64,000 nt of DNA from Kiloniellaceae bacterium (GTDB taxonomy: Bacteria; Pseudomonadota; Alphaproteobacteria; Kiloniellales; J153). Shown in pieces: positions 1,960-63,054 of the stretch. Made by a program: the position numbers and the translations under genes. The stretch spans positions 1-64,000 of the forward strand of contig JAJFGN010000010.1 in assembly GCA_021776115.1 (NCBI GenBank), written 5' to 3'. The notes beneath the pieces are model-generated. The model ran no database searches. It saw nothing but the letters and a program-made list of their open reading frames with translations, and was not told the DNA's origin. How positions within the stretch are numbered: position 1 is the first letter of the stretch; each line of letters opens with the position of its first letter.

Positions 1960-1974
1960 TTAAATTACTTTTAA
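1960..1974 (+). promoter_or_regulatory. candidate CtrA box (TTAA-N7-TTAA)
   Basis: TTAA, seven bases, TTAA, followed by C, matches the full CtrA binding consensus known from Caulobacter and other alphaproteobacteria. It ends 62 bases before the parA start codon. In an AT-rich stretch such a match can arise by chance, so it is a candidate only. The operon it precedes encodes a CtrA-like receiver domain, which adds some weight. Confidence 0.45.
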
Positions 1975-2036: not shown

Positions 2037-2750
2037 ATGCGCGTGATGGCGTTTGCCTCTCAGAAGGGTGGGTCGGGTAAGACGACCTTAGCCGGTCACG
2101 TCGCTGTCCAAGCGGAACGCGTTGGCGCGGGCCCCGTCGCGATCATCGATACCGACCCCCAAGGAAGCCTGTCGGATTGGTGGAACTGCCGCGAGGCCGA
2201 GACACCTGTTTTCGCGCAAACCTTTATTTCGCGCCTCGACGAAGACATCGAGCGGATGCGCGAGATCGGCATTGAACTCCTGATCTTCGACACGCCGCCC
2301 GCGATCACGGCCACGATCGAGCAAGTCGTTCGTCTGTGCGATCTCGTCGTTATCCCTACGCGCCCAAGCCCGCATGACTTGCGTGCCGTGGGCGCCACCG
2401 TCGATCTGTGCGAGAAGCTGGGCAAACCCCTGGTGTTTATTCTCAACGGCGCGACACAACGTGCGCGGATCACGGCGGAGGCCGCGATCGCTCTCTCGCA
2501 AGCGGGAACCGTGGCACCGGTAACAATCCATCACCGCACGGAGTTCGCCTCTAGCATGATCGATGGCCGGACAGTGATGGAAATCAGCTGCAATCCCCGC
2601 TCGGTCGAGGAAATCGAGCAGCTATGGGACTACCTGTCGGATCGGCTGGCGCGTAGCGTTCACCGGGCCGAAATGTCGATTGATGGGCGTGCGGCGGGGG
2701 GGAATCGCGCCTTTGAACATCTGGGTCGGGCAACGAGCGAGGTATTGTGA
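2037..2750 (+). CDS. ParA-family ATPase
   Basis: A 237-residue ParA/MinD-type P-loop ATPase. The deviant Walker A SQKGGSGKTT is at residues 8-17, the Walker A' segment IDTDPQGSLSDWW at about 38-50, and the Walker B-like LIFDTPP near 82-88. There is no N-terminal DNA-binding domain, as in small cargo-positioning ParA proteins. The ATG at 2037 is used; an ATG at 2043 fits an AAGG at 8 bases equally well. A ribbon-helix-helix protein follows one base after the stop and may be its partner, as ParB-like RHH proteins are for small ParAs. It heads a seven-gene operon next to a Tad pilus locus, so positioning of pilus or polar cargo is a plausible inference. No parB or parS is visible, so it is not the chromosomal ParA. 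Confidence 0.85.
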   Translation: MRVMAFASQKGGSGKTTLAGHVAVQAERVGAGPVAIIDTDPQGSLSDWWNCREAETPVFAQTFISRLDEDIERMREIGIELLIFDTPPAITATIEQVVRLCDLVVIPTRPSPHDLRAVGATVDLCEKLGKPLVFILNGATQRARITAEAAIALSQAGTVAPVTIHHRTEFASSMIDGRTVMEISCNPRSVEEIEQLWDYLSDRLARSVHRAEMSIDGRAAGGNRAFEHLGRATSEVL

Positions 2751-2751
2751 G

Positions 2752-3147
2752 ATGGCAAGTGTGGCGTTCCTCACGGCCGGATTGCTTAGCCGCAAAGGCT
2801 CAGCCCGCCCAATGCGGGTCCAGAAGCCGGAGTGCCGGGGTTCAGTCCAGGGCCACGCAAGGTGGGGTTCCGCCTCGCTGAATTACCTGAATTTGACAGC
2901 GCCCGCGCCGCGTAAGCGAGCCAAGGCCGCTCGACCGAAACAAGACCGGGTGCGTGCTTCACTGCGCCTGACACGAGACTTGCACCAAGATCTTAGGACC
3001 ATAAGCACCGCCACAGAGCGAACTCAGCAAAGCATCCTCGTACAGGCGCTTAAAGAATTCCTGGTTCATCATGAGGAACACTTGGAGCATGCCGGTGACC
3101 GTCGATGCCCGGCTAGCGAGGGCCTGGCCGAGAGTGGGCGGTCTTAG
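2752..3147 (+). CDS. ribbon-helix-helix protein linked to parA
   Basis: A small basic protein of 131 residues. The first 60 residues are of unclear fold. A Lys/Arg-rich segment at about 60-70 is followed by a ribbon-helix-helix-like unit: RVRASLRLT (beta strand), then LHQDLRTIS and TQQSILVQALKEFL (two helices), at about 70-110. This matches the CopG/Arc layout of DNA-binding dimers. The ATG sits one base after the parA stop, so the two are almost certainly co-translated. A role as the DNA- or ParA-binding partner of the ATPase is inferred from this pairing. The last 20 residues overlap in sequence the region just before the next gene. Confidence 0.6.
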   Translation: MASVAFLTAGLLSRKGSARPMRVQKPECRGSVQGHARWGSASLNYLNLTAPAPRKRAKAARPKQDRVRASLRLTRDLHQDLRTISTATERTQQSILVQALKEFLVHHEEHLEHAGDRRCPASEGLAESGRS

Positions 3148-3157
3148 GAGAGCGAAA

Positions 3158-3967
3158 TTGGGCCACATGGATCCAAGCGATATTCCGGACGACGGCACGG
3201 CAGAGAATGCCGAAGCGGGACCGCTTTCGGACACCAAGAGCGCACTAGGCGCGCCTGGGTCCCTCATGTCCGTGAAAATCCGCAAGCGGTCGCCAGCTTC
3301 ACACGGGCAATCCGCGCCACAGCAGGCACCGCAAGCTGATGCTCGCCCAGCCATATCCGTTACCTCATCCGACAGTGAAGAGTCCGACAAGGCCGGATCC
3401 ATGTCCGATGCCATCTCCCGCGTCGCACGCCGGGCGCAATCCGCAAGGGCGGAGCGCGCGCTGGCGCCGCGTCAGGCGCCGGTGCGCCGCCCATCCACTG
3501 CGCCGCCACCCGCTGTCTCCACACCGGCTCCAAGTGCGAGCCCGCCCCCGCCCCGCCATAGCGATATCGTCGCCTATTGGACCCGGTTAAGGGGCTCGCG
3601 GCGCTTTCCGAAGAGCACCGAGATCGATGCCGCGGCCATCGCGGAAAGCTGGCCCAACAGCATTTTGATGCGTTGCCGTCCCGGGAGCCGGGCCCTGGAG
3701 CCAGAAAAGGTATTCATGGCGGGAGAAGGCGTCACGCCCGGACTCTCAGGCTTGCGGGGGGGCTCGCGCGTCAACCTTTCACCCATGATGCTGCAATGGC
3801 TCTTGGCCTTGGCGGGTGAAGTTGTTCGGGAAAGCCGTCCTATGAACGACGTTGAAACCTTTCCGTCTGTAAAAAGGGTCGTCCGCTACCGCGCCGTAGC
3901 TCTCCCGTTCAGCGATAACGAAAGCGCGGTGGATCATGTGTTGTGCCACTTCCGACCGGAAACTTAA
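3158..3967 (+). CDS. PAS_5-like protein with long disordered N-terminus
   Basis: A 269-residue protein. The first 130 residues are rich in Ser, Pro and Ala and look disordered. The remainder resembles the alphaproteobacterial PAS_5 family: YWTRLRGSRRFPKSTEID at about 138-155 matches the typical opening of that family, and the strand-rich remainder fits. The start is probably the TTG at 3158, because GGAG lies exactly 7 bases before it; the ATG three codons later (3167) has its nearest GGAG 16 bases away. An upstream in-frame ATG at 3071 overlaps the previous gene and lacks a ribosome site. In the operon it could be a sensory or localisation component, but no ligand or partner is visible. Confidence 0.6.
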   Translation: MGHMDPSDIPDDGTAENAEAGPLSDTKSALGAPGSLMSVKIRKRSPASHGQSAPQQAPQADARPAISVTSSDSEESDKAGSMSDAISRVARRAQSARAERALAPRQAPVRRPSTAPPPAVSTPAPSASPPPPRHSDIVAYWTRLRGSRRFPKSTEIDAAAIAESWPNSILMRCRPGSRALEPEKVFMAGEGVTPGLSGLRGGSRVNLSPMMLQWLLALAGEVVRESRPMNDVETFPSVKRVVRYRAVALPFSDNESAVDHVLCHFRPET

Positions 3968-4014
3968 GGGGCGCACTCGGCGGCAGCGCGTACGATAGCA
4001 AAGGGTAACGAGTG

Positions 4015-5655
4015 ATGATATCGAGATATTCCGGGCGGCGCGCCTTGAAGAATGGAGCCTCGCTAGGAGGATTTCTTCTGCTGGCCGCCTGCTCCAGTCT
4101 GCCGAGCATCGGCCCGAACACGGCGACCGGCCTGCCGACACATGTGGATGGCGGCGCCGGCCAAGTCTTGCGGTTTTGCGAAAAGATGCACGACGCCGGA
4201 GACCTGACAACCGCGGCCGCGACATGTGAGCGAGCGCACCGCCTCAATCCAAGCGCGCCGGAGCCCCTGTTGGAGTTGGCCAGCATCCTTGGTGAGATGG
4301 GCGAGTCCGATCTTTCGATTGAAGCCTATCGCACGATCCTAAAGACGTCACCGGCCAACGCCGACGCGCACTACGGTCTAGGCAGAAGCTACTTGAACCG
4401 GGGACAGCACGACCTGGCCCTAACCGAATTCCAAGCCGCGCTGCGCAGCAATCCCAAGGATCCCCTCTTATATAAGGCGGTCGGCGTTGCGAGCGGCTTG
4501 TTGGGCGCGCACGCAGAAGCCCAAAGAGTCTTCCGGGAAGGGCTGTTAGTTGCCCCGGAAGACGCCGCGCTCCGAAACAACCTTGGCCTCTCCCTGGTTC
4601 AATCCGGACGCTACGATGAGGGTCTGCTGATACTGGAATCGCTGGCCAAAAACCCGGGTGCCGAACAGGTAAGCCATGACAACCTGCTGATGGCGCAAGG
4701 ACTTGCCGCCACCGCGCGAGCCGAGATCATGCTCGCCGAAGTCCGGGCGAAAGAGGAGGCCGAAGCAAACGCTGCGGCTCTTGCGGCTGCTCAAGCGGAG
4801 GCACAACGTCAAGCAGAAGGTCAGGCCGAGTTGACCCCCGGAAAACCAGGTGAACCGGCAATGGCTACATCCACTCCGGCGGCCTTGGTTTCCTCTCCGC
4901 AAAGCTCATGGCCCATGGACGGGCCCGGCGAGGACGGTGTAACGCCAATCGGCAATCTGGCCAGCAAAGCCGCCCCCAATAGGGCGCGCCAAAACCTGGT
5001 CGCGCGGGCCTTGAGCAAGCGGTCGGAATCGGGGCCCGTGACTGCCCCTACCGCTTTGACCAAAACCATGGCCCCGCCGCCAGCGCCAGCGAGCACGCCG
5101 TTGCGATCGCGACCGGCAAGGGCCGTGGCCAAAACTCGCACCCAGGCGGCCCAGGCACCACGGTCGCTCACAGGCCCCAAGGTGCGGCAAACGGCGCGCG
5201 CCGACCTCGGCGACACCAGCGATGCGGGCGCCGCCACGGCCAACAACCCCGGCACAACCGCCCCATCCGGGAGCCGCCAGCGGACGACCCCGACCCCCGC
5301 CCAACTGGTGGCAAAGCCGCCGCAGCCGGGTCCCCCCCCCACCGCGAAATCGGTACGGGACACCTACACAGTACAGTTCGCCTCTTACACCAGTGAAGAG
5401 CGGGCGTGGCGCGGCTGGGACTCGCTTCGGGGCGCGGCGAGCAGCCTGCTGAGCAACATCGAGCCAGACGTGCGCCGCGCCGACCTAGGCGGCGACACGG
5501 GAACAGTCTATCGCTTGCAGACCGAACCAGCCCCGAAACGGAACGCCAAGAGCCTCTGCTCCGCACTTAAGGCCGAGGGCGTCGAGTGTCTTGTAATTAA
5601 GTCAGAGCCTGAGATTGCCAAGGGCGGCGCCGCCAAGGGACCCGCCACCCTATGA
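4015..5655 (+). CDS. TPR and SPOR domain lipoprotein, TadD-like
   Basis: A lipoprotein of 546 residues: the signal peptide ends in a lipobox (LLLAAC, Cys about 26). Residues about 60-230 hold TPR repeats (LNPSAPEPLLELASILGEMG, NADAHYGLGRSYLNRGQHD). A long Ala/Gln then Pro/Thr/Ala-rich linker follows, and residues about 440-525 form a SPOR domain beginning TYTVQFASYTSEERAW. TPR lipoproteins of the TadD type serve pilus assembly; SPOR domains bind denuded glycan strands at division septa. Having both suggests a factor at the outer membrane that senses or reaches septal peptidoglycan. ATG 4015 follows AGGG by 9 bases; a GTG at 4012 is also possible. The next gene overlaps by ATGA. Confidence 0.8.
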   Translation: MISRYSGRRALKNGASLGGFLLLAACSSLPSIGPNTATGLPTHVDGGAGQVLRFCEKMHDAGDLTTAAATCERAHRLNPSAPEPLLELASILGEMGESDLSIEAYRTILKTSPANADAHYGLGRSYLNRGQHDLALTEFQAALRSNPKDPLLYKAVGVASGLLGAHAEAQRVFREGLLVAPEDAALRNNLGLSLVQSGRYDEGLLILESLAKNPGAEQVSHDNLLMAQGLAATARAEIMLAEVRAKEEAEANAAALAAAQAEAQRQAEGQAELTPGKPGEPAMATSTPAALVSSPQSSWPMDGPGEDGVTPIGNLASKAAPNRARQNLVARALSKRSESGPVTAPTALTKTMAPPPAPASTPLRSRPARAVAKTRTQAAQAPRSLTGPKVRQTARADLGDTSDAGAATANNPGTTAPSGSRQRTTPTPAQLVAKPPQPGPPPTAKSVRDTYTVQFASYTSEERAWRGWDSLRGAASSLLSNIEPDVRRADLGGDTGTVYRLQTEPAPKRNAKSLCSALKAEGVECLVIKSEPEIAKGGAAKGPATL

Positions 5656-6413
5656 ACACCCGGCGAGCCGTGCCAAGCGACGCGGTCCCACCCGCCGCCG
5701 TTGACGGCTCGCAGCCTGGGACGGCCCGTCTGATAGTTCCGCAAGTGCACATAGTCGCAGAACCAAAAAGGTCCGGCGCGCTGAGCGCCGCCGCCTTTTC
5801 GCTTGAGGCGCCCGATACAGCGCATCTGGCCAGGGAAGTCAGCAATCTATCGGCGCAGAACGAGCACCTGCTAAAAAGCGTCGATACGCTTCTACGCTTG
5901 CACGAAAGCGAGAAGGCGCAGCGTCAATCGTTGCAGACTACCTTGGATCGCTTGCTCGAAGAGATCGGGATAAACACACCGATCCAGTCGCTCGAGGCAG
6001 CGGGAACCGAGATTCGGAATGGCGTATCGGAAGACTTAAAACCGCTGCTGCACGCGATAATCGATCTTCTCGAGCTTTCGGTGCGGCGTGTGCCCGCGCC
6101 TTCTGCCAAATCGCCCGAATCAGGGAGTTGCCAGGGTGTAGATGGTTCCCGCGAAAGCACCTCCGGTCAACACCCCTCCGAGGATTTGCCTGGCGCGCTT
6201 CCTGAGATTCTCACCAAATCGGTGGAGGAGTTAGTGGGAAAGCAACGTGCAAGCCGCCCGAAAATCATCAAGTCCAGAGATTTGAGGTCAAACGCACGGC
6301 AGCCGGCCGGAAAGAATGAAACGGATACCGCCGGAAACGAACGGCGCGCCGCATCCAAAGGACCGCGCCCCCAGGCGTGGATCCCCGTTACATCCAGCGC
6401 GCTCAAACCCTAG
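5652..6413 (+). CDS. coiled-coil protein of unknown function
   Basis: I do not recognise this 253-residue protein. It begins in an ATGA overlap with the lipoprotein stop, so it is translationally coupled. Residues about 55-125 are predicted from heptad-like spacing to be coiled coil (HLAREVSNLSAQNEHLLKSV followed by a Glu/Gln/Leu-rich helix). Residues 130-255 are polar, with many Lys, Arg and Ser, and look flexible. There is no signal peptide or membrane segment, so it is probably cytoplasmic. Its place between a SPOR lipoprotein and a receiver-MipZ fusion suggests an adaptor or scaffold role, but this is only inference from context. Confidence 0.55.
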   Translation: MNTRRAVPSDAVPPAAVDGSQPGTARLIVPQVHIVAEPKRSGALSAAAFSLEAPDTAHLAREVSNLSAQNEHLLKSVDTLLRLHESEKAQRQSLQTTLDRLLEEIGINTPIQSLEAAGTEIRNGVSEDLKPLLHAIIDLLELSVRRVPAPSAKSPESGSCQGVDGSRESTSGQHPSEDLPGALPEILTKSVEELVGKQRASRPKIIKSRDLRSNARQPAGKNETDTAGNERRAASKGPRPQAWIPVTSSALKP

Positions 6414-6479
6414 TCGCTATCCGACAACAGACAGATCCCGGCTCAATCCATCACCACTCTGTGAACCCAACTTTGCCCG

Positions 6480-7901
6480 ATGCGCGCGCTCATCATAGAA
6501 GACGACCCTTCGGTCAGCCGAAGCATCGAGCTTATGCTGATGTCACGCGGCTACACGTGTGTCGTCGCGGAGACCGGCGCCGCGGGGATTGAGCTGGCTC
6601 GCGAACAGCAACAAGATATCGTTTTGCTCGACCTTTCCCTGCCCGACGTGGATGGGCACGCCGTGCTGCAACAGTTTCGGGCGCAACGGATCCGCACGCC
6701 GGTCCTCATTCTCTCGGGCAGTGACGATCGGCGAGACAAGATCAAAGGCCTTGGCGTCGGGGCCGACGACTACGTCACCAAACCTTTCGACAAAGACGAA
6801 CTGCTGGCACGCATAACGGCCATCCTCCGCCGCGCGACAGGGCGAACCCCACCGCCAAGGGCTGCGAACCTAGACAGCTTGTTGCTGGCCAAACGTGGAC
6901 GGGCCGCCGCGTGGAGCTTCAGCGACTCCTACGCGCCGCCGGACCCGAGCGAGCCGCCCCCAAATACCGTTAGTCTGGAAGCCTTGTCCCCGCAGGCGGC
7001 GGTAAGCGCCGGCACAGACCTTCAGAATCCCGGAATCGCCCTGGGTCCAGCGAAGATCATCGTGCTTGGCAACGGCAAGGGAGGGACCGGCAAGTCAACA
7101 ATTGCTATGCATTTGATCGTGGCCCTCCAGACCGCGGGCCACAAAGTCGCCAGCTTCGACTGCGATTGCCCGCAAGGCACACTGACGCGCTATATCGAAA
7201 ATCGCCGCCGTTTTGCCGTGGGCAAAACCCCGAACCTGGCGATACCCACCCATGAGACCCTGGACGCGGACGCACACAAGGACGGGAGAGCCGATCGTGC
7301 TTTGGACGGACAATCCAGATGCAACGACTACGTCGTTATCGACACGCCCGGATACGATTCGCCACTGTCCCGTTGGGCCCATGGCTACGCCGATATCCTA
7401 GTCACACCGATTAACGACAGCTTCGTCGACCTGGACGTCCTGGCCGAGGTCACCGAAAAGCCTCACCGCCTCGTGCGACCAAGCCACTACAGCGAGCTTG
7501 TTCAGGACGCGCGTCATCGAAAACCGGCGGCCCGGCAAAAAATCGACTGGATCGTGTTGCGCAACAGGCTTGCTAACCTGGATGCCCGGAACCGCCGCAG
7601 CATGTCGCAAATTCTTGCCAAAATATGTGGGTCCTTGGGGTTCCGCGAAGGGCCCGGCCTACGCGAACGGGTCATATACCGGGAGTTGTTCTTGTCTGGC
7701 CTGACGTTGCTCGACCTGCCGCGGGACGACGTGCGTCTGCGTTTCGCCATGAGCCACGTCGCCGCGCGGCAAGAACTTAGGCTGCTTCTAGAAGCCGTCC
7801 AGCCGCCAAGCCCGCCCGCCGGAATTAACCGCCCGGCAAAGCTGAAAAACGACACCGAACTTGGAGACGTGGCGACCGACATAAAACAGGCGGCCCCATG
7901 A
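6480..7901 (+). CDS. CtrA-like receiver fused to MipZ-type ATPase
   Basis: A 473-residue fusion. Residues 1-118 are a receiver domain with acidic D8/D9, phospho-acceptor D51 in LLDLSLPD, S80 and K101 in GADDYVTKPF. Its start, MRALIIEDD with IELML at 16-20, aligns without gaps to CtrA, whose phosphorylation site is also D51. Residues about 120-190 are a Pro/Ala linker. Residues 191-440 match MipZ: deviant Walker A GNGKGGTGKST (197-207), VIDTPGYDS, ADILVTPINDSFVDLD, WIVLRNRL and GLRERVIYREL, all MipZ signatures. MipZ is the ATPase that places the FtsZ ring in alphaproteobacteria. It is distinct from CpaE, which has its own gene at 13087. No ribosome site is seen before the ATG. Function inferred: a phosphorylation-controlled positioning ATPase. 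Confidence 0.85.
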   Translation: MRALIIEDDPSVSRSIELMLMSRGYTCVVAETGAAGIELAREQQQDIVLLDLSLPDVDGHAVLQQFRAQRIRTPVLILSGSDDRRDKIKGLGVGADDYVTKPFDKDELLARITAILRRATGRTPPPRAANLDSLLLAKRGRAAAWSFSDSYAPPDPSEPPPNTVSLEALSPQAAVSAGTDLQNPGIALGPAKIIVLGNGKGGTGKSTIAMHLIVALQTAGHKVASFDCDCPQGTLTRYIENRRRFAVGKTPNLAIPTHETLDADAHKDGRADRALDGQSRCNDYVVIDTPGYDSPLSRWAHGYADILVTPINDSFVDLDVLAEVTEKPHRLVRPSHYSELVQDARHRKPAARQKIDWIVLRNRLANLDARNRRSMSQILAKICGSLGFREGPGLRERVIYRELFLSGLTLLDLPRDDVRLRFAMSHVAARQELRLLLEAVQPPSPPAGINRPAKLKNDTELGDVATDIKQAAP

Positions 7902-9022
7902 GCGACACCCGGGTTCCGTTCCCAGCCGCTGAAGGCACGGAGATCGGCCGTGCCGCGCCCAAGAGGTTCCTGGAACTGTGGATCGCAACCGGCATGGATG
8001 TTCTTCGTCAGCAGGCATGGCTCATCGCCATCATGCTCGGCTACATCGCGCTGGGCATCGCGATTGGACGCTGGAACGGTCAGCTCATCAAGTTGACCCT
8101 CTATAGCGGGATCATGGGTTGGCTTTACTTATTCTTCGCAATCGTCGCCGTCACTGCGCGTGGCGCCAGTATCCTCCACGAGCACAAACCGGCGAGGCCG
8201 GTTTCCTTTCTAGCTGCCGACTTCAAGGCATTTTACTTGGCGCCGCACCGGCTCATGGCGCCGCTTCCGGTGCTTGTCCTGACACCGTCCTTCCTTTCCG
8301 TCGTATCGTCGATCAAGCGGCTGATACCCGAGATCAATCCCTTTAAGTGGGACCGAGACTTCTCCGAACTCGACCGGTTCCTGTTTGGAGGTGTCCACCC
8401 TTGGGAGCTATTGCAGCCTTACCTAGGGACTCCATTCGTCACCGGACTGATCTCCGAATTCTATAGCTATCCATGGCTTATCGTTGTCGCCTTGATGCAA
8501 TTTTGGCTCACCTTTACCTCGAACCCCGATCGTCAAAGGCTGCTTTTGACCACCGTTCTGGCGTGGATACTGCTAGGGAATGTCGCGGCCATCGCCTTCT
8601 CTTCCGCCGGTCCAGTGTACTATGAGCACTTCGTCGCTGGCGCGAACCCCTATCAGGACTTAATGGCCCATCTGGCGGCGGTCAACAAGGTGGCAGCCAT
8701 CGGCGCGGTAGATACGCAAAACTACCTGTGGTCCATGTATGTTACCGGCGACTTGCGTCCAGGATCGGGCATATCGGCAATGCCCAGTATGCATCTGAGC
8801 ATGGGGACGCTCCTGGTTCTTGCCGCACGGGGCCTGGATCGCCGGCTCATGGTCCTTGCTCTGGCTTATCTCGCCTTCCTTGAAATCGGCTCAATTCACC
8901 TGGGCTGGCACTACGCCATCGACGGTTATGCCGGGATCGCCGGCACCTTGGCGATCTGGTGGGCTCTGGGGCGGCTCCTGCCATGCAATGGCCCGTCCCA
9001 CGGGCAAGGCGCGGCCAGGTGA
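7898..9022 (+). CDS. PAP2-family integral membrane enzyme
   Basis: A 374-residue membrane protein with about six to eight hydrophobic segments. The C-terminal half carries the PAP2 phosphatase motifs: GSGISAMPSMHLSM (the SxxxH motif with catalytic His) near 288-302 and LGWHYAIDGYAG near 333-345 (second His and the D that activates it). The layout, with a conserved aromatic-rich N-terminal membrane part, is closest to the PAP2_3 or inositol phosphorylceramide synthase-like branch, which act on phospholipids or transfer phospho-head groups. It overlaps the receiver-MipZ stop by ATGA and ends the operon. Its tie to the other genes is not obvious; a lipid or lipid-carrier substrate is inferred from the family. 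Confidence 0.78.
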   Translation: MSDTRVPFPAAEGTEIGRAAPKRFLELWIATGMDVLRQQAWLIAIMLGYIALGIAIGRWNGQLIKLTLYSGIMGWLYLFFAIVAVTARGASILHEHKPARPVSFLAADFKAFYLAPHRLMAPLPVLVLTPSFLSVVSSIKRLIPEINPFKWDRDFSELDRFLFGGVHPWELLQPYLGTPFVTGLISEFYSYPWLIVVALMQFWLTFTSNPDRQRLLLTTVLAWILLGNVAAIAFSSAGPVYYEHFVAGANPYQDLMAHLAAVNKVAAIGAVDTQNYLWSMYVTGDLRPGSGISAMPSMHLSMGTLLVLAARGLDRRLMVLALAYLAFLEIGSIHLGWHYAIDGYAGIAGTLAIWWALGRLLPCNGPSHGQGAAR

Positions 9023-9233: not shown

Positions 9234-9416
9234 ATGCTTACGAGCATCAAGCAGTTCTACGTCGACGAATCGGGCGCCACGGCCATCGAGTATGGCCTAA
9301 TCGCCGCTCTTGTGTCTGTGGCCGCCATTACAGCCCTGACCGCTATGGGTGATTCGCTGGTCACGATCTTTGGTCGTGTTTCGAGCGAGCTCAGCGGCGC
9401 GGTCGCGGTTCCGTAA
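9234..9416 (+). CDS. flp: Flp/type IVb pilin subunit
   Basis: The 60-residue product is a typical Flp prepilin: a short leader (about 13 residues) ending in ESG, then GATAIEYGLIAALVSVAAI, the conserved processing site and hydrophobic helix with Glu+5 and Tyr+6. The prepilin peptidase CpaA, encoded next, would cleave after the leader Gly. The pilin is assembled by the Tad machine into thin adhesive pili. A strong AAGGAG ribosome site and a following terminator indicate high, separate expression from the downstream assembly genes. Confidence 0.95.
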   Translation: MLTSIKQFYVDESGATAIEYGLIAALVSVAAITALTAMGDSLVTIFGRVSSELSGAVAVP

Positions 9417-9511: not shown

Positions 9512-10039
9512 ATGTGCGGCGCAATGGAATACGTGAATTCGTCCGACATCGCGGCGACAGTCGCCATTCTGGCGTATGTCGGTTTAGTCTTCGCGGCCGG
9601 GGTCAACGACGTCCTCACGTTGACGATTCCCAACCGCTTCTCGGGGGCGATCGTGCTGCTCTACCCGTCCTACGTCTTGTCGACAGTTTATCCGATCGAC
9701 TGGCTGAGTAGTCTCCTGATCGCTTTCGGCGCCCTGGTCTTCGCATCCGTACTCTTCGCCTTTGGCTTTTGGGGGGGCGGGGATGCAAAGCTCTTCGGCG
9801 CGGTCGCGCTTTGGGCCGGGCCGGATTTCATCTTGGATTTTACTCTAATTACCATGGCGACGGGCGGCGTCATCACTGCTTTCGTTTTGTTGCAGCACAC
9901 CCTGCCCCATGTATTCGTATCCGGCTTTTTCCGCTTCAGGGATGTCATTCCCAAGCTACGCGGCGAACCCATCCCCTATGGCGCGGCCATCGCCGTAGGA
10001 GCTCTTTACGGGGCTTTTACACTGCTCAAGGTAAGTTAA
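9512..10039 (+). CDS. cpaA: prepilin peptidase, CpaA/TadV type
   Basis: A 175-residue polytopic membrane aspartyl protease that processes Flp prepilin. The signature FWGGGDAKL (about 88-96) contains the conserved GxGD catalytic motif, and an Asp in the N-terminal NDVLTLTIPNRF segment (about 33) fits the second catalytic Asp. It lacks the N-methyltransferase domain of PilD, as usual for this class. The ATG at 9512 abuts the flp terminator; an ATG at 9524 (MEYVN) is an alternative, and neither has a clear ribosome site. cpaB begins 4 bases after its stop. Confidence 0.92.
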   Translation: MCGAMEYVNSSDIAATVAILAYVGLVFAAGVNDVLTLTIPNRFSGAIVLLYPSYVLSTVYPIDWLSSLLIAFGALVFASVLFAFGFWGGGDAKLFGAVALWAGPDFILDFTLITMATGGVITAFVLLQHTLPHVFVSGFFRFRDVIPKLRGEPIPYGAAIAVGALYGAFTLLKVS

Positions 10040-10043
10040 GGCC

Positions 10044-10940
10044 ATGTCAGCACGAAATATTATCCTCATTGTCGCGGCGGTTCTCATAACTGCCGGGACC
10101 GCATACTTGGCCCGAGACTGGCTTAACAACCAGCGCCCGCCGGCCCAAGCTGCCGCGCCACCGCCGCCTAAGATCGAAGGCGCCATGGTCTTGGTCGCGG
10201 CCGCCGACCTTCCCGCTGGCACCTTGTTGCAAGACAAGCACTTACGCTGGCAGATTTGGCCGAGTGACGCTGTCCCAGCAACCTACGTCGTAAAACCTAA
10301 GGCCGAAGACCGGCCCGATCCAATAATCGGCTTACTGGGTGCGGTTGTCCGCAAGGGCATTTCGACCGGTGACCCGGTCTCGCGTGGACGTATCCTTCAG
10401 CCGGGCGACCGCGGTTTTCTTGCAGCGGTGCTAAGACCGGGATACCGGGCCATGTCGATTCAGGTTACCGCAACTTCCGGTATCTCCGGCCTGGTTTTTC
10501 CCGGCGATAGAGTTGACCTAATCTTGACACACGCGGTCAAACGCGGCGGCAAGGACAGGCGTGCAAGTGAGACGGTGTTAACCAATGTCCGCGTGCTGGC
10601 CATCGATCAGACCATTGACGACCAATCGGGCAGCGCGCGCGTGTTCAAGAACGCAACTTTCGAGCTCACGCCCAAGCAGACCGAAATGCTTGCCGTCGTC
10701 GGAGAAATTGGGCGTCTTTCGTTGACGCTGCGCAGCTTGGCCAAGGACGAGGCAGAATTAGAGCGCCTGACCAACTCCGAGGAGCCCCTAGCCGAACCGG
10801 ATCCAGCGCGTGGCCTGACTCACACATGGGATACTGAGGTTAGCCGCCTTCTATGGCAACCCAGCAGCGCCAACGTCGACACCGTCCAAGTGTCCCGGGG
10901 TAATGAAACCAAAGAAGTAAAATTTCGCAGGCGCAAATGA
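10044..10940 (+). CDS. cpaB: Flp pilus assembly protein CpaB
   Basis: A 298-residue protein of the CpaB/RcpC family. It has an N-terminal membrane anchor (residues 5-22), then a SAF-like domain beginning AMVLVAAADLPAGTLLQDKH (about 48-67) and a conserved FPGDRVDLILTH segment near 151. CpaB is thought to work in the periplasm with the secretin CpaC. It overlaps cpaC by four bases (ATGATGA arrangement), so translation is coupled. Confidence 0.92.
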   Translation: MSARNIILIVAAVLITAGTAYLARDWLNNQRPPAQAAAPPPPKIEGAMVLVAAADLPAGTLLQDKHLRWQIWPSDAVPATYVVKPKAEDRPDPIIGLLGAVVRKGISTGDPVSRGRILQPGDRGFLAAVLRPGYRAMSIQVTATSGISGLVFPGDRVDLILTHAVKRGGKDRRASETVLTNVRVLAIDQTIDDQSGSARVFKNATFELTPKQTEMLAVVGEIGRLSLTLRSLAKDEAELERLTNSEEPLAEPDPARGLTHTWDTEVSRLLWQPSSANVDTVQVSRGNETKEVKFRRRK

Positions 10941-12355
10941 TGACCAGGATTTGTTCTCATCTACTCGCGCTCGCAGCAATTTTGGGCTCAATTTTGTGGT
11001 CGGAAACCAGCACCACGCTAGCCCAAGAGCGCGCGATAACCCAGAGCGACGGGCGCTTTGAGGTCCCGCGGCATCAGGGCCGTTTGGTACGCCTGTCAGC
11101 TCCGGCGGTGTCAGTCTTCATTGCCAACCCAGCGATCGCGGATGTCACCGTAAAGTCCTCCCGCATGGTCTATGTCTTCGGCAAGTCGCCGGGGACAACT
11201 ACGCTCTTCGCCGTCGACCGCAACGAGAACATCATTGCCGATATCGATATCGCCGTAACTCACGATCTGCCTAGCTTGGACCGAGCTATCGGTAAGTTGT
11301 TACCCAACGGAAGTGTGACAGTAGATTCCGTGCAAGGCGCAATTGTGTTGGAAGGCAGCGTCGCCAGCGTAACCGACGCCGAAAATGTTCGCCGGCTCGC
11401 GGTTCGTTTCATAGGAGAGGGTGAGGAAGTCATCAACCGCCTTGCGGTCACGGACCCCAACCAAGTTAACGTGCGAGTTCGCATCGCAGAGGTGTCGCGC
11501 ACGGCGGTCCGGCAACTCGGTCTCAACTTCGATATCACGAGAGGCGACTTCAGTTTCACCTCGGGTGAGACATTCTTGCAGAACCCGGCCGCCCTGTCGG
11601 GCCAAGGCGGGTTCACGCTACTTGGCGATCAATTCGGTGCCGGCCTAATTAGCAACCTCAATGTTGGACAAGCGACGATCAATGTCCTGTTCGACGCGCT
11701 CGAGGAAATCGGCCTCGCCAAAACCTTGGCGGAGCCGAACTTGACGGCCCTGTCCGGCGAAACCGCGAGCTTCTTGGCGGGCGGCGAGTTTCCAATCCCT
11801 ACGATCGACGAGGATGGCCGGGTTGTCGTTCAATTCAAGGAGTTCGGCATCAGTTTGGCCTTTACGCCAACGTTGATAAATGACGGGCGCATTAGCATGC
11901 GTGTCCGCCCGGAGGTCAGCCAACTTTCGGCCGCAGGCGCGGTGTCGGTGAACGGCCTGAGTATTTCAGCTCTGACCACCCGGCGCGCCGAAACCACGAT
12001 CGAACTGGCTTCCGGCCGCAGCTTCGCCATCGCGGGTCTATTCCAAGAGGATTTCCAGGATAGCGTTCGCCAGATACCCTTTCTCGGAGACGTGCCGTTG
12101 CTAGGTGAGTTGTTCAAGAGCGAGCAATTCCGCAGAAACGAGTCAGAGCTGATTATCTTGGTGACGCCTTACATCGTGCAGCCGTTTGAAGATCGCGATG
12201 TGCCGCTACCAACCGACCCCCTGACCAAATCGAACGTCGCTCTACAGAACAAGCGGCCACGGAATCTCTCCGCCAATCTGTCGCGAACCATTGAGGTGCC
12301 AATCGGACCCGCGGGCGGAACGCAATCGGGCGCAGCCACGTATATTTTGGATTGA
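10937..12355 (+). CDS. cpaC: type IVb pilus secretin CpaC
   Basis: The 472-residue outer membrane secretin of the Tad pilus. It has a signal peptide ending near TLAQ (residue 30), a pilus and secretin N-terminal domain (FEVPRHQGRLVRLSAPAVSV), a BON-like region around 110-150, and the secretin core from about 240, with VPLLGELFKSEQF and the terminal ELIILVTPYIV typical of the family. It forms the channel through which the Flp fibre leaves the cell. Neighbours cpaB and cpaD support this. Confidence 0.94.
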   Translation: MMTRICSHLLALAAILGSILWSETSTTLAQERAITQSDGRFEVPRHQGRLVRLSAPAVSVFIANPAIADVTVKSSRMVYVFGKSPGTTTLFAVDRNENIIADIDIAVTHDLPSLDRAIGKLLPNGSVTVDSVQGAIVLEGSVASVTDAENVRRLAVRFIGEGEEVINRLAVTDPNQVNVRVRIAEVSRTAVRQLGLNFDITRGDFSFTSGETFLQNPAALSGQGGFTLLGDQFGAGLISNLNVGQATINVLFDALEEIGLAKTLAEPNLTALSGETASFLAGGEFPIPTIDEDGRVVVQFKEFGISLAFTPTLINDGRISMRVRPEVSQLSAAGAVSVNGLSISALTTRRAETTIELASGRSFAIAGLFQEDFQDSVRQIPFLGDVPLLGELFKSEQFRRNESELIILVTPYIVQPFEDRDVPLPTDPLTKSNVALQNKRPRNLSANLSRTIEVPIGPAGGTQSGAATYILD

Positions 12356-12365
12356 GGTCACGGAG

Positions 12366-13079
12366 ATGATGTTCGTATCTACACGTACCTTCCGTTTCCG
12401 GTCGCTATACGTCACCTTGGCATCGGCGATGTTGTCGGGTTGCTTTTTGAACCCTGACAGTATGCCGCCGAACGAGGTGGTGCCTCTCCACCAACTCTAT
12501 AATTCTATGCTCAGTCTAGCGCCCGCGGTCGTCGAGCCACAGGCCGAGATCATCACTATGATTCATAAAACCAACTTCGCGTTTGGCGCCGACGATCTCA
12601 GCGACAGCGAGATGGTCCGTCTGAAGAAATTTCTACAGGACACCGGCGCGGACCGAACGACCCGGATCGAAATCAGTGGCCCACGCAAGGCCGCCGGCAA
12701 GCACGATGTGCTAACGGCCGCGCGAATAGGCTCTATATCCACGAGCCTCTCGAACCAAGGCATGAGGCCGGCGGTTGCTTCCCACCCGATCGATTCCATG
12801 ACCGTGCCGGATGATGCCATCGTCGTGACCGTCACCCGCGCCATGGTTATCGAACCGGACTGCAATGTGCCAAAGACAATCTACGGTCCTCGCCCCACCC
12901 ACATTTGGAGCTGTTCCAACACAGCGGTTCTCGGCCGAATGATCGTTGACCCACTTGACTTGGAACGCGGACGGCCGCAAGGCCCCGGCGACGGCGAGGC
13001 GCTCGCGCCCGGGATCGCGCGATATCGCGCCGGTAAGATTAAGGAAATCAAGTCCCAATCCGTCACTAGTTCGGAATGA
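12366..13079 (+). CDS. cpaD: Tad pilus lipoprotein CpaD
   Basis: A 237-residue lipoprotein of the CpaD family. The signal peptide ends in SAMLSGC, giving a lipobox Cys near 24. The central part has an OmpA/BON-like peptide (INFAFGADDLS type) and the C-terminal half contains the conserved Cys-bearing DCNVPKTIYGPRPTHIWSCS, close to the family signature around NFGCA. CpaD is the probable pilotin for the CpaC secretin. The start could be the ATG at 12366 or 12369; an earlier in-frame start at 12291 would lie inside cpaC and spoil the signal peptide. Confidence 0.85.
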   Translation: MMFVSTRTFRFRSLYVTLASAMLSGCFLNPDSMPPNEVVPLHQLYNSMLSLAPAVVEPQAEIITMIHKTNFAFGADDLSDSEMVRLKKFLQDTGADRTTRIEISGPRKAAGKHDVLTAARIGSISTSLSNQGMRPAVASHPIDSMTVPDDAIVVTVTRAMVIEPDCNVPKTIYGPRPTHIWSCSNTAVLGRMIVDPLDLERGRPQGPGDGEALAPGIARYRAGKIKEIKSQSVTSSE

Positions 13080-13086
13080 ATCTGAT

Positions 13087-14322
13087 ATGAGCGCCGCAGA
13101 AAAATTCCTGGACCCACAGGACTCGGAGCACGCCGCCGCGGAGTGCGTCGCCTTTGTCGGCGACAATCAGACGCACGACGTCGTCGAGGCGGTTGCTCGT
13201 CAATTCTTCGACGAACCCTATGTACGTGACGGCGGCAGCCAGCAAGCCCTCGACTACCTGGCAGAAGCCCCGACGCCGACGGTATTGATCGTCGATATCG
13301 GAGAATCCTCGGCGCCGCTGACCGCTATGCTGTCCTTGACCGCGGCGTTCAGCGAACAAACGCGTTTGATCGGCATCGGCACGATCAATGATATCAACCT
13401 GTATCGTGAGATGGTAGGCGCCGGCATTACCGATTACCTGATCAAGCCAGTTACGGAAAAGGCCTTGGCCGCAGCACTGTGCCGTACCGAGGACACACCG
13501 GCGGCGGCAGCTGCAACGGAAACGGGCACTGACAAGGTCAACAAAATTGCGGTAATAGGCTCTCGCGGCGGCGTCGGCGCCAGCGCCATCGCCGTAAACC
13601 TGGCTTGGCTGATCAGTCAAGAGCGCGGCCAAAAGACGGCTTTGATCGACCTCGATCTTGAATTTGGAACCGTAGCCCTATCATTGGATCTGGAGCCGAC
13701 GCGCGGCCTGCGCGAAGCGTTGGAGAGTCCGAACCGGATTGATAGCCTCTTCATCGAAAGTGCCACGGCAAAACTGACCGAAAAGCTGTCGGTCATGGCG
13801 ACCGAGGAAACCCTCGCACACCAGATCGAGTACAATCCGGACGCTATCGATATTCTATTCGACACAGTAGGGCGGTCCAACACGTGTATCGTCGCGGATG
13901 TTCCCCGATCCGCCTATACCGTCCGCCAGCGCGTATTTGAAGATTGCTCCAAGATACTTGTCGTGACCGACCTCACGTTGTCCGGTCTGCGCGACACCAT
14001 GCGCCTCATAACTGGAATCGAGGAAGTCGCGCCCGGCCGGCTAGTTTATATCGTCGCAAACCGCACCGGCGGTAAGTATCAGGCGATGACGACCAAGGAC
14101 TTTCAGAAAGCTCTCGGGCATAAGGTCAATTTCGTAGTTCCCGATGATCCTAAAACATTCAATCTTGCCGCAAATAACGGCAAACCAATCGCCCAAATTC
14201 AAACCAAGAATCCGGTTAGCAAGGCGATCCGCAAGATAGCCGAGGAAATGACGGAGATTGCAGCCGAAGACGTGGGTAGCGCCCCGAAGACTGGTTGGCG
14301 CCGGTTCTTCAAAAGAAAGTAG
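13087..14322 (+). CDS. cpaE: pilus assembly ATPase CpaE/TadZ
   Basis: A 411-residue protein with an atypical receiver domain (about 20-135, lacking the full acidic pocket) and a ParA/MinD-like ATPase domain (about 150-385). The nucleotide loop reads SRGGVGASAIAVNL, the CpaE form in which the usual GKT/S is changed to GAS. CpaE/TadZ directs the pilus machine to the cell pole. It is a second receiver-plus-ParA-fold protein in the same locus, but differs in all key motifs from the receiver-MipZ protein at 6480. The ATG at 13087 follows the cpaD stop by 7 bases; the longer open frame from 12946 overlaps cpaD and is rejected. Confidence 0.92.
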   Translation: MSAAEKFLDPQDSEHAAAECVAFVGDNQTHDVVEAVARQFFDEPYVRDGGSQQALDYLAEAPTPTVLIVDIGESSAPLTAMLSLTAAFSEQTRLIGIGTINDINLYREMVGAGITDYLIKPVTEKALAAALCRTEDTPAAAAATETGTDKVNKIAVIGSRGGVGASAIAVNLAWLISQERGQKTALIDLDLEFGTVALSLDLEPTRGLREALESPNRIDSLFIESATAKLTEKLSVMATEETLAHQIEYNPDAIDILFDTVGRSNTCIVADVPRSAYTVRQRVFEDCSKILVVTDLTLSGLRDTMRLITGIEEVAPGRLVYIVANRTGGKYQAMTTKDFQKALGHKVNFVVPDDPKTFNLAANNGKPIAQIQTKNPVSKAIRKIAEEMTEIAAEDVGSAPKTGWRRFFKRK

Positions 14323-14328
14323 CCGAAT

Positions 14329-16008
14329 ATGAAAGGCGCAACGGGCAACGCGCGTTCTGCGGGAACCACCCAACGAGGCGGTGCGGCGACCTTCGGCAAT
14401 GCTCAGCGCTTAGCGCAATATGTCGAAGAGCTCCGGCCCGAAGTTCTTAGCGCCTTTGAAGGCCAGAATCTGGCTGCTATTCCCCGCCCCGAGCTGGCCG
14501 TGCGCATCGGGCAGATCGTCACTACGGCGACAGAGACGGATTCTCAGTCACTCAATCTTTTGGATCGGCGCAATTTGGTTGCCGAGCTCATCAAATGGTT
14601 GTTGTTCGATAGCCCCTTGGCTCCGCCACCTCCAAGTGAGACTGAAGCATCCATGACGCCGGCGGCAGCGGCAGCGCTTAATGAAGTACCGGAATCACGT
14701 CAACCCCGGCGCGAACGCAATGAGGCCCGCAACAAACCAGCAGTCGAAGTTTCCGCCACGGTTGAGCGCACGAAACTAAAGATCGAGCCGACGGTAATGG
14801 ACCGTCTGGATGTCTCCGCTGCCTCCCAACTGCCGCGCGACGAATTGTCTCTCCAACTGCGTGAAATCGTCACCGAGGTGCTTGCGGAACAAAACCTGCG
14901 CCTCAACCAGATCGAACAGTTCAGCCTCGTCGAGCTACTCCTTGACGATATGTTGGGACTGGGGCCGCTGGAGCCCCTACTCGCCGACGAGACCGTGACC
15001 GACATTTTGATCAACGGTCCCAACCAAGTTTACGTGGAGCGAAAGGGTAAGCTGGACGCCACTGACGTTCGCTTCCGCGACAACGATCATGTACTCAATA
15101 TCGCGCGACGTATCGTCTCGATTATCGGCCGCCGCGTCGACGAAACGGTTCCACTCGTCGATGCCCGATTGCAGGACGGCAGTCGCGTAAACATTATCAT
15201 TCCACCATTAGCGATCGACGGCCCTACCATCTCCATCCGTAAGTTCTCCAAAAAGGGCATCACTCTCGATTTGATGGCCCGGCAGCACAACATTTCCGAG
15301 GCGATGGGTACCGTTCTCAAGATTGCCGCTCGCAGTCGTCTCAACATCTTAATCTCCGGTGGCACAGGTTCCGGCAAGACCACCCTCCTCAACGCCATGT
15401 CGCAAATGATCGACGAGCGCGAACGAATTGTTACCATTGAGGATGCGGCGGAACTGCAGCTCCAACAACCCCATGTCGTGCGGCTGGAGACACGACCCGC
15501 GAACCTAGAAGGTACTGGTGAGATCACGATGCGAGACTTAGTGAAGAATTCTCTTCGTATGCGTCCTGATCGTATCATCCTGGGCGAGGTGCGTGGCTCG
15601 GAAGCGGTGGACATGCTCCAGGCCATGAACACCGGCCATGACGGCTCGCTCGGCACGGTTCACGCCAACCGGCCGCGCGAAGCATTGACGCGACTTGAGA
15701 ACATGATTGGTATGGCCGGCATCAACCTACCGGCCAAAGCGGTTCGCACACAGATCGCTGCCGCAATCGACATGATTGTTCAGGTTTCGCGCATGCGCGA
15801 CGGGATGCGCCGGGTCACACACATTACCGAAATTATCGGCATGGAAGGCGACATCATTACCACCCAAGACCTTTTCACCTATGAATTCGAAGGTGAGGGT
15901 CTCGACGGCATGCTGAAGGGAAATTTCCGTTCGACCGGGCTGCGTCCCCACTTTGCAGCCAATGCCGCCTACTTTGGCCTCGACCGCCGCTTGCTGGAGT
16001 GCATGTGA
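14329..16008 (+). CDS. cpaF: Tad pilus assembly ATPase CpaF/TadA
   Basis: A 559-residue hexameric secretion ATPase of the GspE family that powers pilus extension and probably retraction. A variable N-terminal 150 residues precede the CpaF core. Walker A GGTGSGKTT is at about 345-353, the Asp box IVTIEDAAELQL follows, then LRMRPDRIILGEVRGSEA (Walker B) and the His box HDGSLGTVHANRPREAL. All catalytic motifs are intact. The stop codon overlaps the tadB start (TGATG). Confidence 0.95.
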   Translation: MKGATGNARSAGTTQRGGAATFGNAQRLAQYVEELRPEVLSAFEGQNLAAIPRPELAVRIGQIVTTATETDSQSLNLLDRRNLVAELIKWLLFDSPLAPPPPSETEASMTPAAAAALNEVPESRQPRRERNEARNKPAVEVSATVERTKLKIEPTVMDRLDVSAASQLPRDELSLQLREIVTEVLAEQNLRLNQIEQFSLVELLLDDMLGLGPLEPLLADETVTDILINGPNQVYVERKGKLDATDVRFRDNDHVLNIARRIVSIIGRRVDETVPLVDARLQDGSRVNIIIPPLAIDGPTISIRKFSKKGITLDLMARQHNISEAMGTVLKIAARSRLNILISGGTGSGKTTLLNAMSQMIDERERIVTIEDAAELQLQQPHVVRLETRPANLEGTGEITMRDLVKNSLRMRPDRIILGEVRGSEAVDMLQAMNTGHDGSLGTVHANRPREALTRLENMIGMAGINLPAKAVRTQIAAAIDMIVQVSRMRDGMRRVTHITEIIGMEGDIITTQDLFTYEFEGEGLDGMLKGNFRSTGLRPHFAANAAYFGLDRRLLECM

Positions 16009-17018
16009 TGGAGGTGTTTGAGTTTCTAAGTGGATCAGGCGCCGGCCCAGAAGCGCTGATTATCGTGCTATTACCGATCGGCTGCATCCTCCTCCTATTT
16101 GGCTTATTCTCGGGCAACGAGCGTGCGCCTCTCTACCGGCGCATAGAGATCGTCAGAGCGCATCACCAGAAGCGCGCGCCGGGCGAAGCACACGTCTCTA
16201 TTGCTCGCCAAAAGAAAAAAAATAGCGAGATCGAATTTCTCGACAATCTGCTCAGGCGGATTATCCCGCGCCAGGAAGTTCTGCGCCTGCGGATCGAGCG
16301 AGCGGGTATGAGCCTCTCCATCGGCGTCTACGTCCTGACGAGCCTGCTGATCGCCATGGCTGTCGCATTCTTGGTTGGCACGGTGGGGCGCGCACCCATC
16401 GCGATCGCGGTCCTGACTGGCTTCACCATAGGCCTTAGCTTTCCGCACAGCTTTCTCGGTTGGCGGATCAAGCGTCGCCAGACTCAATTTATCGAGCACT
16501 TCCCTGACGCGATCGATCTCATGGTGCGTGGCCTGAAGGCAGGTTTGCCAATCGGGGAGTCGATCAAAACCGCCGGTGAAGAAATCGCAGACCCCGTCGG
16601 ATTGGAGTTGCGGCGCGTTACTGACGGCGTTCGAATTGGCCGCCAGATGGATGAGGTCCTCTTTGAGGCCTCGCGGCGGGTCAACCTGCAGGAGTTCGAC
16701 TTCTTCACCATCGCTCTATCGATCCAAAGCGAGACCGGCGGCAACTTGGCGGAAACCCTCTCCAACCTCACCGATGTTCTGCGCGGGCGGCGCCAGATAA
16801 AACGTAAGATCCGGGCACTATCTTCGGAGGCCAAGGCCAGCGCTTATATCATCGGTTCGCTTCCGTTCATCATGACCCTGCTCATCTACATTATGAACAG
16901 CGAATACATCATTGGCTTGTTCACCGATCCGCGCGGTCAGGCCATGGTCGGCTTCGGCCTATTCATGGTCTTCGCCGGCGCCGGCGTCATGTTTAAGATG
17001 GTCAAGTTCGAGATATGA
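16008..17018 (+). CDS. tadB: Tad pilus inner-membrane platform protein TadB
   Basis: A 336-residue GspF-domain membrane protein with two N-terminal and two C-terminal hydrophobic segments around a cytoplasmic T2SF domain (about 155-285: FPDAIDLMVRGLKAGLPIGE ... QSETGGNLAETL). Together with TadC it forms the inner-membrane platform on which CpaF acts. The ATG at 16008 overlaps the cpaF stop and follows GGAG by 8 bases; an upstream GTG at 15999 is less likely. Confidence 0.93.
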   Translation: MEVFEFLSGSGAGPEALIIVLLPIGCILLLFGLFSGNERAPLYRRIEIVRAHHQKRAPGEAHVSIARQKKKNSEIEFLDNLLRRIIPRQEVLRLRIERAGMSLSIGVYVLTSLLIAMAVAFLVGTVGRAPIAIAVLTGFTIGLSFPHSFLGWRIKRRQTQFIEHFPDAIDLMVRGLKAGLPIGESIKTAGEEIADPVGLELRRVTDGVRIGRQMDEVLFEASRRVNLQEFDFFTIALSIQSETGGNLAETLSNLTDVLRGRRQIKRKIRALSSEAKASAYIIGSLPFIMTLLIYIMNSEYIIGLFTDPRGQAMVGFGLFMVFAGAGVMFKMVKFEI

Positions 17019-17995
17019 TCGCGGAGTTTTTCGATTTACTGGGGTTTTCGCAAGAGCAGATTCTGGTCTTCATGGCCAGTCTCTCCGCGGCAACGATCAG
17101 CATAACTGTATGGATCACTTTGCTGCACAAGGATCCTGGCGCGCGCAGGGCGAAGCTGATTGGCGCTCAGCGTGACGCCTTGCGTGCCGGCATAGTCGGC
17201 CCACGACGGCGGCAGGAACGGCTTCCAACGATTGGCTTGATGCGCCGCGTCGTGGATCGGTTGAATTTGCTCCGCTCGGCCCAGGCCGCCCGAATATCGA
17301 TTAAGTTGATGCGGGCCGGATGGCGTTCCAAAGATGCAATCATCCGGTACCTGTTTCTTAAAGTGGCCCTGCCCTTCGTTCTCGGCGCATTGGCCGTGAC
17401 GTTGTTTTACGGCCTGAACCTTTATGCCCTCAACACCGCGGGCAAGCTTGCAATTACCATCGGATGCGTTCTGCTGGGCGCGTATCTGCCAGACATCGTT
17501 ATCAAGAACGCCGCGAGCAAGCGCGCCGAAAATATCCGTAAGGCTCTGCCAGATGGGCTCGACCTCATGGTCATCTGCGCGGAGGCGGGCTTGAGCCTTG
17601 ACGCCACCCTCTTGAGGGTGTCGCAAGAAATGGAGAAAACCGCACCCGAACTGGCCGATGAGTTTAGCCTCACCGGCCTTGAACTCGGGTTCCTGCCAGA
17701 TCGGCGCAAAGCCCTTCAGAACCTGGCGCTGCGCGTCGATTTGCCCGGCGTGCGCGGAGTCGTCAACACGCTCATGCAAGCCGAACGCTACGGTACACCG
17801 CTGGCGCAATCCCTGCGTGTAATGTCAGCGGAGTCCCGGAACGAGCGGATTATGAAGGCCGAGGAAAAGGCTGCCCGCCTGCCAGCCCTTCTGACTGTAC
17901 CAATGATAGTCTTTATCTTGCCGCCGTTGTTCATCATCCTGATCGGTCGCGCGGTCCTAAAGGCCGTTGACGCAATCAGCGGCCTGTCGTTCTAA
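17015..17995 (+). CDS. tadC: Tad pilus inner-membrane platform protein TadC
   Basis: A 326-residue GspF-domain protein, partner of TadB, with which it overlaps by ATGA. The T2SF domain (about 175-300) includes LPDGLDLMVICAEAGLSLDA and NTLMQAERYGTPLAQSLRVM, and there are four hydrophobic segments in the TadC arrangement. It ends the pilus operon; the usual tadD, tadE, tadF and tadG genes do not follow. Confidence 0.93.
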   Translation: MIAEFFDLLGFSQEQILVFMASLSAATISITVWITLLHKDPGARRAKLIGAQRDALRAGIVGPRRRQERLPTIGLMRRVVDRLNLLRSAQAARISIKLMRAGWRSKDAIIRYLFLKVALPFVLGALAVTLFYGLNLYALNTAGKLAITIGCVLLGAYLPDIVIKNAASKRAENIRKALPDGLDLMVICAEAGLSLDATLLRVSQEMEKTAPELADEFSLTGLELGFLPDRRKALQNLALRVDLPGVRGVVNTLMQAERYGTPLAQSLRVMSAESRNERIMKAEEKAARLPALLTVPMIVFILPPLFIILIGRAVLKAVDAISGLSF

Positions 17996-59008: not shown

Positions 59009-59033
59009 ACCAAGATCTCCATTCTGACAGATT

Positions 59034-60119: not shown

Positions 60120-60123
60120 GGCC

Positions 60124-62151
<2,028 letters not shown>

Positions 62152-62167
62152 GATACCCTCCACAAGG

Positions 62168-63043: not shown

Positions 63044-63054
63044 TGAGGAGCCCC

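Follow-up and report, generated by a model that had tools for sequence, protein, structure and literature searches.

In alphaproteobacteria, cell-cycle phosphorelays are known to act on positioning ATPases mainly via transcription, through the CtrA circuit. The gene studied here lies in a window of 64,000 nucleotides (the whole stretch of DNA analyzed, from a Kiloniellaceae bacterium), and its product, designated REC-MipZ, resembles several described proteins in part. MipZ of Caulobacter crescentus (PF09140; PDB 2xj4, 2xj9) shares with REC-MipZ the ATPase fold, the deviant Walker A motif, and the catalytic Asp, with nucleoid-binding positions kept in part. However, Caulobacter MipZ possesses no receiver, and REC-MipZ stands apart from it in the tree, is linked to Tad pilus genes, and is changed at R198 and R242. 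The receiver of CtrA (4qpj) has the same catalytic and dimer-face residues as REC-MipZ, which differs from CtrA in the absence of the DNA-binding domain and in forming its own group beside the CtrA orthologues. CpaE/TadZ proteins, described in PMC13170226 (citing Xu et al. 2012) as an atypical receiver joined to a ParA/MinD ATPase that acts in localisation, are like REC-MipZ in layout only, with a receiver followed by a ParA/MinD-superfamily ATPase and a link to pili. They are unlike it in having an atypical receiver and an ATPase of the MinD branch, and the window encodes a CpaE of its own. In TerB-MipZ and PAS_5-MipZ proteins, too, an extra N-terminal domain precedes the MipZ ATPase, although that domain differs; PAS_5-MipZ is the closest relative of the ATPase of the fusion.

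The layout of a receiver and a ParA/MinD ATPase is thus already known from CpaE/TadZ, and what is new here is the intact CtrA-clade receiver, the MipZ branch of the ATPase, and the Tad-linked setting headed by a putative CtrA box. No fusion of MipZ and a receiver was found in a full-text literature search judged by title and abstract, in which subscription journals were thinly covered; within that coverage, the original prediction that the fusion was undescribed agrees with what was found.

A CtrA-type receiver fused to a MipZ-family ATPase

The analysis confirmed that positions 6480-7901 encode a true fusion of a CtrA-type receiver and a MipZ-family ATPase, with the following parts:

6480..7901, plus strand: REC-MipZ fusion gene, 473 aa, with profile matches and orthologues in five further genomes
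6480..6848, plus strand: CtrA-family receiver domain, residues 1-123, with acidic pocket E7/D8, phospho-acceptor D51, S79, Y98, and K101
6849..7043, plus strand: linker, residues 124-188, with pLDDT < 50 over most of it (alignment and AlphaFold2)
7050..7802, plus strand: MipZ-family ATPase domain, residues 191-441 (Pfam, structures, and tree)

The list of open reading frames and the translation give a single plus-strand frame of 473 residues without interruption, and orthologous fusions occur in other genomes, in line with the proposal that both halves form one polypeptide. Pfam matches were obtained to Response_reg at residues 4-112 (E 4e-27) and to MipZ PF09140 at residues 193-441 (E 4e-87), the latter scoring 292 bits against a gathering cut-off of 20.7. 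Pfam revealed no DNA-binding output domain or C-terminal winged helix, MipZ occupying that place. Among the NCBIfam receiver models, CtrA was the top match (residues 1-123, 153 bits), followed by PmrA (108). The closest solved structures by sequence were Caulobacter MipZ 2xj4 and the CtrA receiver 4qpj_C, the latter aligned without gaps over residues 1-118, Asp51 included, as had been proposed from the sequence; the MipZ-type nature assigned to the C-terminal half was borne out by the profile score and the best-matching structure. Within the linker, a conserved stretch, LLLAKRG-AA-W-F--SYAPP, lies at about residues 135-155.

An AlphaFold2 model built on a 73-row alignment (a 6-row alignment gave a poor model) showed two confident domains, with a mean pLDDT of 82, values > 90 across the greater part of each domain, and values < 50 for most of residues 123-176 and 455-473. 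The modelled ATPase matched MipZ 2xj4 with Z 32.1 and an rmsd of 1.9 over 252 residues, and the modelled receiver matched the CtrA receiver 4qpj with Z 23.1 and an rmsd of 1.1 over 118 residues, OmpR-type receivers also being matched. Since the linker is modelled at low confidence, no fixed contact between receiver and ATPase can be claimed.

Besides the window genome (G000), orthologues of REC-MipZ, 54-79% identical to the window protein, were detected in G001, G002, G003, G005, and G008. The fusion is thus present in six of the nine genomes of the family, comprising 4/4 of the window's own genus and 2/2 of a second genus. The remaining three genomes of the family, which are 59%, 81%, and 90% complete, showed no such fusion, nor did the order's other families (61 genomes in all), plasmid records, or 385 genomes sampled class-wide at E 1e-80, a threshold that could miss a fusion broken into two weaker pieces. 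A contig search with receiver peptides returned stand-alone receivers only and has little bearing on distribution. All carriers belong to a little-studied group of alphaproteobacteria and are draft genomes, probably of uncultivated bacteria, that of the window being in 85 contigs. In four genomes of the window's genus, dN/dS was 0.12-0.18 in the receiver and in the ATPase, and higher in the linker; both halves are under purifying selection. Two sets of further candidates were rejected as fusions. In G004 and G033, MipZ is surrounded by long frames that look like read-through in a non-coding frame adjacent to an oxidoreductase gene, and the CtrA-like proteins of G004 and G007 proved to be a receiver bearing a PilZ-like tail and the product of a second CtrA-like gene.

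Ancestry and functional residues of the two halves

The window genome encodes one CtrA of 242 aa on contig C19, separate from the fusion, and comparison of this protein with the REC-MipZ receiver showed 56% identity over 123 residues without gaps. In a tree of 46 receivers, those of the fusions formed one group (100/95) beside the CtrA orthologues, and the clade that unites the fusion receivers with CtrA and with CtrA-like receivers, of which some have a PilZ output, had a support of 100/98; the N-terminal half therefore does not group with unrelated receivers. As the fusion receivers fall outside the CtrA orthologues, the REC-MipZ receiver is a CtrA paralogue. CtrA orthology was rejected on this separate clade, the lack of a DNA-binding domain, and the presence of the genome's own CtrA elsewhere. 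Other CtrA-clade receivers were noted in these genomes: L007 (G000:C17:100195-100557), fused to PilZ according to Pfam, L098, apparently of the same type, and L101. Besides its normal CtrA, G007 encodes another CtrA-like regulator, L096 (G007:C217:6128-6970), whose C-terminus is of the DNA-binding type.

The residues of phosphorylation and switching (E7, D8, D51, S79, Y98, and K101) are kept in all fusions where readable, as are the dimer-face residues D96, D97, E107, R111, R117, and R118. Previous work has indicated that OmpR-type receivers dimerise upon phosphorylation and that the dimer face of CtrA carries the salt bridges D96-R118 and D97-R111 (PMC9981736), which the fusion residues match. 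Matches to the ChpT family were found in all six fusion genomes, lying in the window genome about 10 kb from ctrA. The positions contacting ChpT were taken from the Brucella complex (CtrA D9, A11, S15, L18, and M19); the window protein has D, S, S, L, and M at positions 9, 11, 15, 18, and 19, the fusions in general D, S, S, L, and a hydrophobic residue, and CtrA D, A, S, L/M, and M. Position 11 carries Ser for Ala in CpdR, another ChpT substrate, and positions 11 and 19 are variable. Of these five positions, 0-2 agree with CtrA in most unrelated receivers of these genomes, and 2-4 in CtrA-clade receivers. The contact residues of REC-MipZ are compatible with ChpT, but kinship with CtrA could account for them.

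In the ATPase half, K200, G201, K205, and D229 correspond to K13, G14, K18, and D42 of Caulobacter MipZ, whose functional positions were taken from PMC7229837 and PMC3355305, and are invariant in the six fusions. Six of nine DNA-binding positions are kept in kind in the window protein (R194, R196, K197 as R, R219, R221, and L237), and three are altered (R198 to S, R242 to V, and L248 to M). R198 and R242 are both important to DNA binding by Caulobacter MipZ; by sequence inspection R198 is also missing in the core MipZ of the window genome, so its change is not diagnostic. The ATPase halves grouped in a single clade (96/88) at a great distance from CpaE and ParA, and membership in CpaE/TadZ or ParA was rejected on the tree and the profile scores. 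In an outgroup-free tree, they joined the PAS_5-MipZ fusions of another family (100/99), apart from 35 other MipZ proteins, a placement whose long branches call for care. Identity with canonical MipZ was rejected on this separate clade and an AU test, which excluded grouping with the core MipZ of the window genome (p 0.0001). The original prediction of joined CtrA and MipZ therefore stands as to a CtrA-clade receiver and a MipZ-family ATPase, but both are paralogues, and the genome has a separate CtrA and MipZ.

Three further MipZ paralogues were identified in the window genome: the core copy in the ParA-SPOR-MipZ locus of contig C40, a TerB-MipZ on C67, and a copy by an oxidoreductase-type gene on C84. 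Related architectures were also observed elsewhere. A PAS_5 (MopJ-like) domain precedes a MipZ-family ATPase in L044 and L046 (G036 and G039), to which the ATPase half of REC-MipZ is most closely related. A TerB-like N-terminus precedes a MipZ paralogue in L004 (G000:C67:30806-31657), L050, and L053, and probably in L047, L048, L051, L052, L054, and L055; such paralogues occur across the order, with a weak TerB match in some of the part scanned. A MipZ-like ATPase gene is also present at L002, L045, L036, and L097, adjoined in three of them, as judged by eye, by a molybdopterin oxidoreductase-type gene.

Tad pilus neighbourhood and putative CtrA box

The fusion adjoins a Tad pilus locus in all six genomes that carry it. 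In the window, the neighbourhood is composed as follows:

1960..1974, no strand assigned: putative CtrA box TTAAATTACTTTTAA, 62 nt before the ParA start, the only perfect TTAA-N7-TTAA of the window
2037..2750, plus strand: ParA-type ATPase, first gene of the run (profile matches and conserved order)
2680..3147, plus strand: small conserved protein that probably begins near 2746-2752, judged ribbon-helix-helix only by eye, without a Pfam match
3071..3967, plus strand: protein with a weak PAS_5/MopJ-like domain (profile matches, conserved order)
4012..5655, plus strand: TPR protein with a C-terminal SPOR-like domain (Pfam, conserved order)
5652..6413, plus strand: possible coiled-coil protein, directly upstream of the fusion, with weak ZapB similarity below cut-off
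7898..9022, plus strand: PAP2-family membrane protein, overlapping the stop codon of the fusion (Pfam)
9234..9416, plus strand: Flp/Tad pilin PilA
9512..17995, plus strand: Tad locus with cpaA, cpaB, cpaC, cpaD, cpaE (13087-14322), cpaF, tadB, and tadC

Within the Tad locus, CpaD and CpaE were checked individually and the remaining genes were named from translation and gene order. Five genomes show the co-directed order ParA, small protein, PAS_5-like, TPR/SPOR, coiled-coil-like, REC-MipZ, PAP2, cpaA, cpaB, cpaC, cpaD, cpaE, and cpaF, the PAP2 gene being present in four of these five; the sixth carries the fusion on a short contig, with cpaA after it. The window has its Flp pilin gene between PAP2 and cpaA. 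The upstream run was not found at the Tad loci of relatives lacking the fusion. Its ParA is highly conserved and is paralogous to, but distinct from, the ParA encoded at the core mipZ locus, and the PAS_5 half of the PAS-MipZ fusion of G039 is 28% identical to the PAS_5-like protein of the run (E 1e-8), a hint that a PAS_5-like protein and a MipZ-like ATPase may act together. The combination of a ParA-type ATPase, a SPOR protein, and a MipZ-type ATPase occurs twice in the window genome, at the core locus L226 (C40) and at the Tad-linked positions 2037-7901. Elsewhere in the window, a Calvin cycle run was recognized by eye at 57587-63996 (RuBisCO large subunit, aldolase, transketolase, phosphoribulokinase, and FBPase).

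In Caulobacter, cpa genes have been described as controlled by CtrA (PMC5182063). Each of four other loci has exactly one perfect TTAA-N7-TTAA, in the same promoter (5/5 testable genomes including the window), and the window genome as a whole has 37 against 21 in a reversed control. Shuffles of the 250-nt upstream regions gave 0.5-4.6% per genome, with the three closest genomes not being independent; in G003 and G005, the box is kept amid diverged flanks (shuffle P 0.005 and 0.010). The longer CtrA motif TTAACCAT-N6-TTAA gave no result.

Proposed working and alternative explanations

The Tad linkage and the putative CtrA box, which are the strongest contextual evidence and were absent from the original prediction, point to a possible role in pilus placement at least as much as in the control of FtsZ. 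Our main reading, tentative and with a probability of roughly 0.4, is that REC-MipZ belongs to the MipZ family, is gated by phosphorylation, and serves the Tad pilus. CtrA would switch on the gene run headed by the putative box, and the CckA-ChpT relay, or a related kinase, would phosphorylate the receiver, after which phosphorylated receivers would pair through the alpha4-beta5-alpha5 face. This pairing would lift the local concentration of MipZ domains, and the slow ATP-sandwich dimer would form. MipZ dimers are weak (Kd about 8 uM), and their formation, aided by ParB, limits the cycle (PMC3355305); with dimerisation both weak and rate-limiting, an added dimeriser is plausible as a control point. 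The dimer would remain on the nucleoid until ATP hydrolysis, the phosphorylation state deciding where and when the ATPase is active. A pilus-related client is favoured by the constant Tad linkage and the separate core MipZ, although the linkage does not prove joint action, since neighbouring genes need not act together. This client would likely be the Tad machine or its partners (CpaE, or the TPR/SPOR, PAS, and coiled-coil-like proteins of the run) and not the division ring, which the core MipZ could serve. The core MipZ probably performs division placement, since searches of the fusion genomes revealed no MinC. The placement or timing of the Tad machine would thereby be tied to the CtrA circuit; the architecture and the linkage are what the data show, and the phosphodonor, gradient, and target named in this scheme are ones that we infer. 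The scheme draws on the kept phosphorylation, dimer-face, and ATPase-cycle residues, the ChpT-contact positions, and the putative CtrA box; against it stand the low-confidence linker, the variation at ChpT-contact positions 11 and 19, and the changes at R198 and R242. It is doubtful that the CckA-ChpT relay has, beside CtrA and CpdR, a third kind of output in which it directly phosphorylates a gradient-forming ATPase while CtrA controls transcription of the same ATPase, so that one relay sets both its amount and its spatial state for the Tad pilus.

Possible, if on the unlikely side, is that REC-MipZ acts as a second, phospho-gated regulator of the division site, inhibiting FtsZ as Caulobacter MipZ does but only when the CtrA relay permits, which would bring division placement under cell-cycle control. 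The MipZ fold and the residues of the ATPase cycle are kept, the upstream neighbours have SPOR-like and weakly ZapB-like features, and the core mipZ is likewise flanked by SPOR and ParA genes. However, the fusion is linked to Tad genes in every carrier, its ATPase is far from canonical MipZ, and the window genome encodes its core MipZ separately, along with two other MipZ paralogues. It also seems unlikely that, instead of being a phospho-switch tied to ChpT, the receiver is acted on by another kinase or by none and serves for docking or multimerisation, attaching the ATPase to a partner as the CpaE/TadZ receiver may in the Tad machine. The CpaE of the same locus has a similar layout with a weak receiver match, and dimer-dimer contacts of CpaE are thought to use the receiver domains (PMC13170226), whereas REC-MipZ, unlike a degenerate receiver, keeps the full catalytic set and the salt bridges of the phospho-dimer. 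Very unlikely is a receiver serving as a phosphate sink or persisting as a vestigial CtrA duplicate, with the ATPase half working alone: a CtrA paralogue stripped of its DNA-binding domain would fit, but the dN/dS of the receiver is as low as that of the ATPase, and the dimer face is kept. That an assembly or sequencing error fused two genes has practically no chance of being true and was rejected, for although the source is a draft genome, the same fusion recurs in six genomes of two genera whose DNA has diverged.

Under the main reading of a phosphorylation-gated ATPase serving the Tad pilus, the fusion suggests that a positioning protein may come under the direct control of the signalling chain of the cell cycle. 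The link lies within a single chain, in which direct phospho-control of a ParA/MinD-superfamily ATPase is testable by one point mutation (D51). Receiver dimerisation via a flexible linker would be a simple natural design to switch ATPases of the ParA/MinD type, and REC-MipZ would represent a possible tie of the CtrA circuit to the place and time of Tad pilus building.
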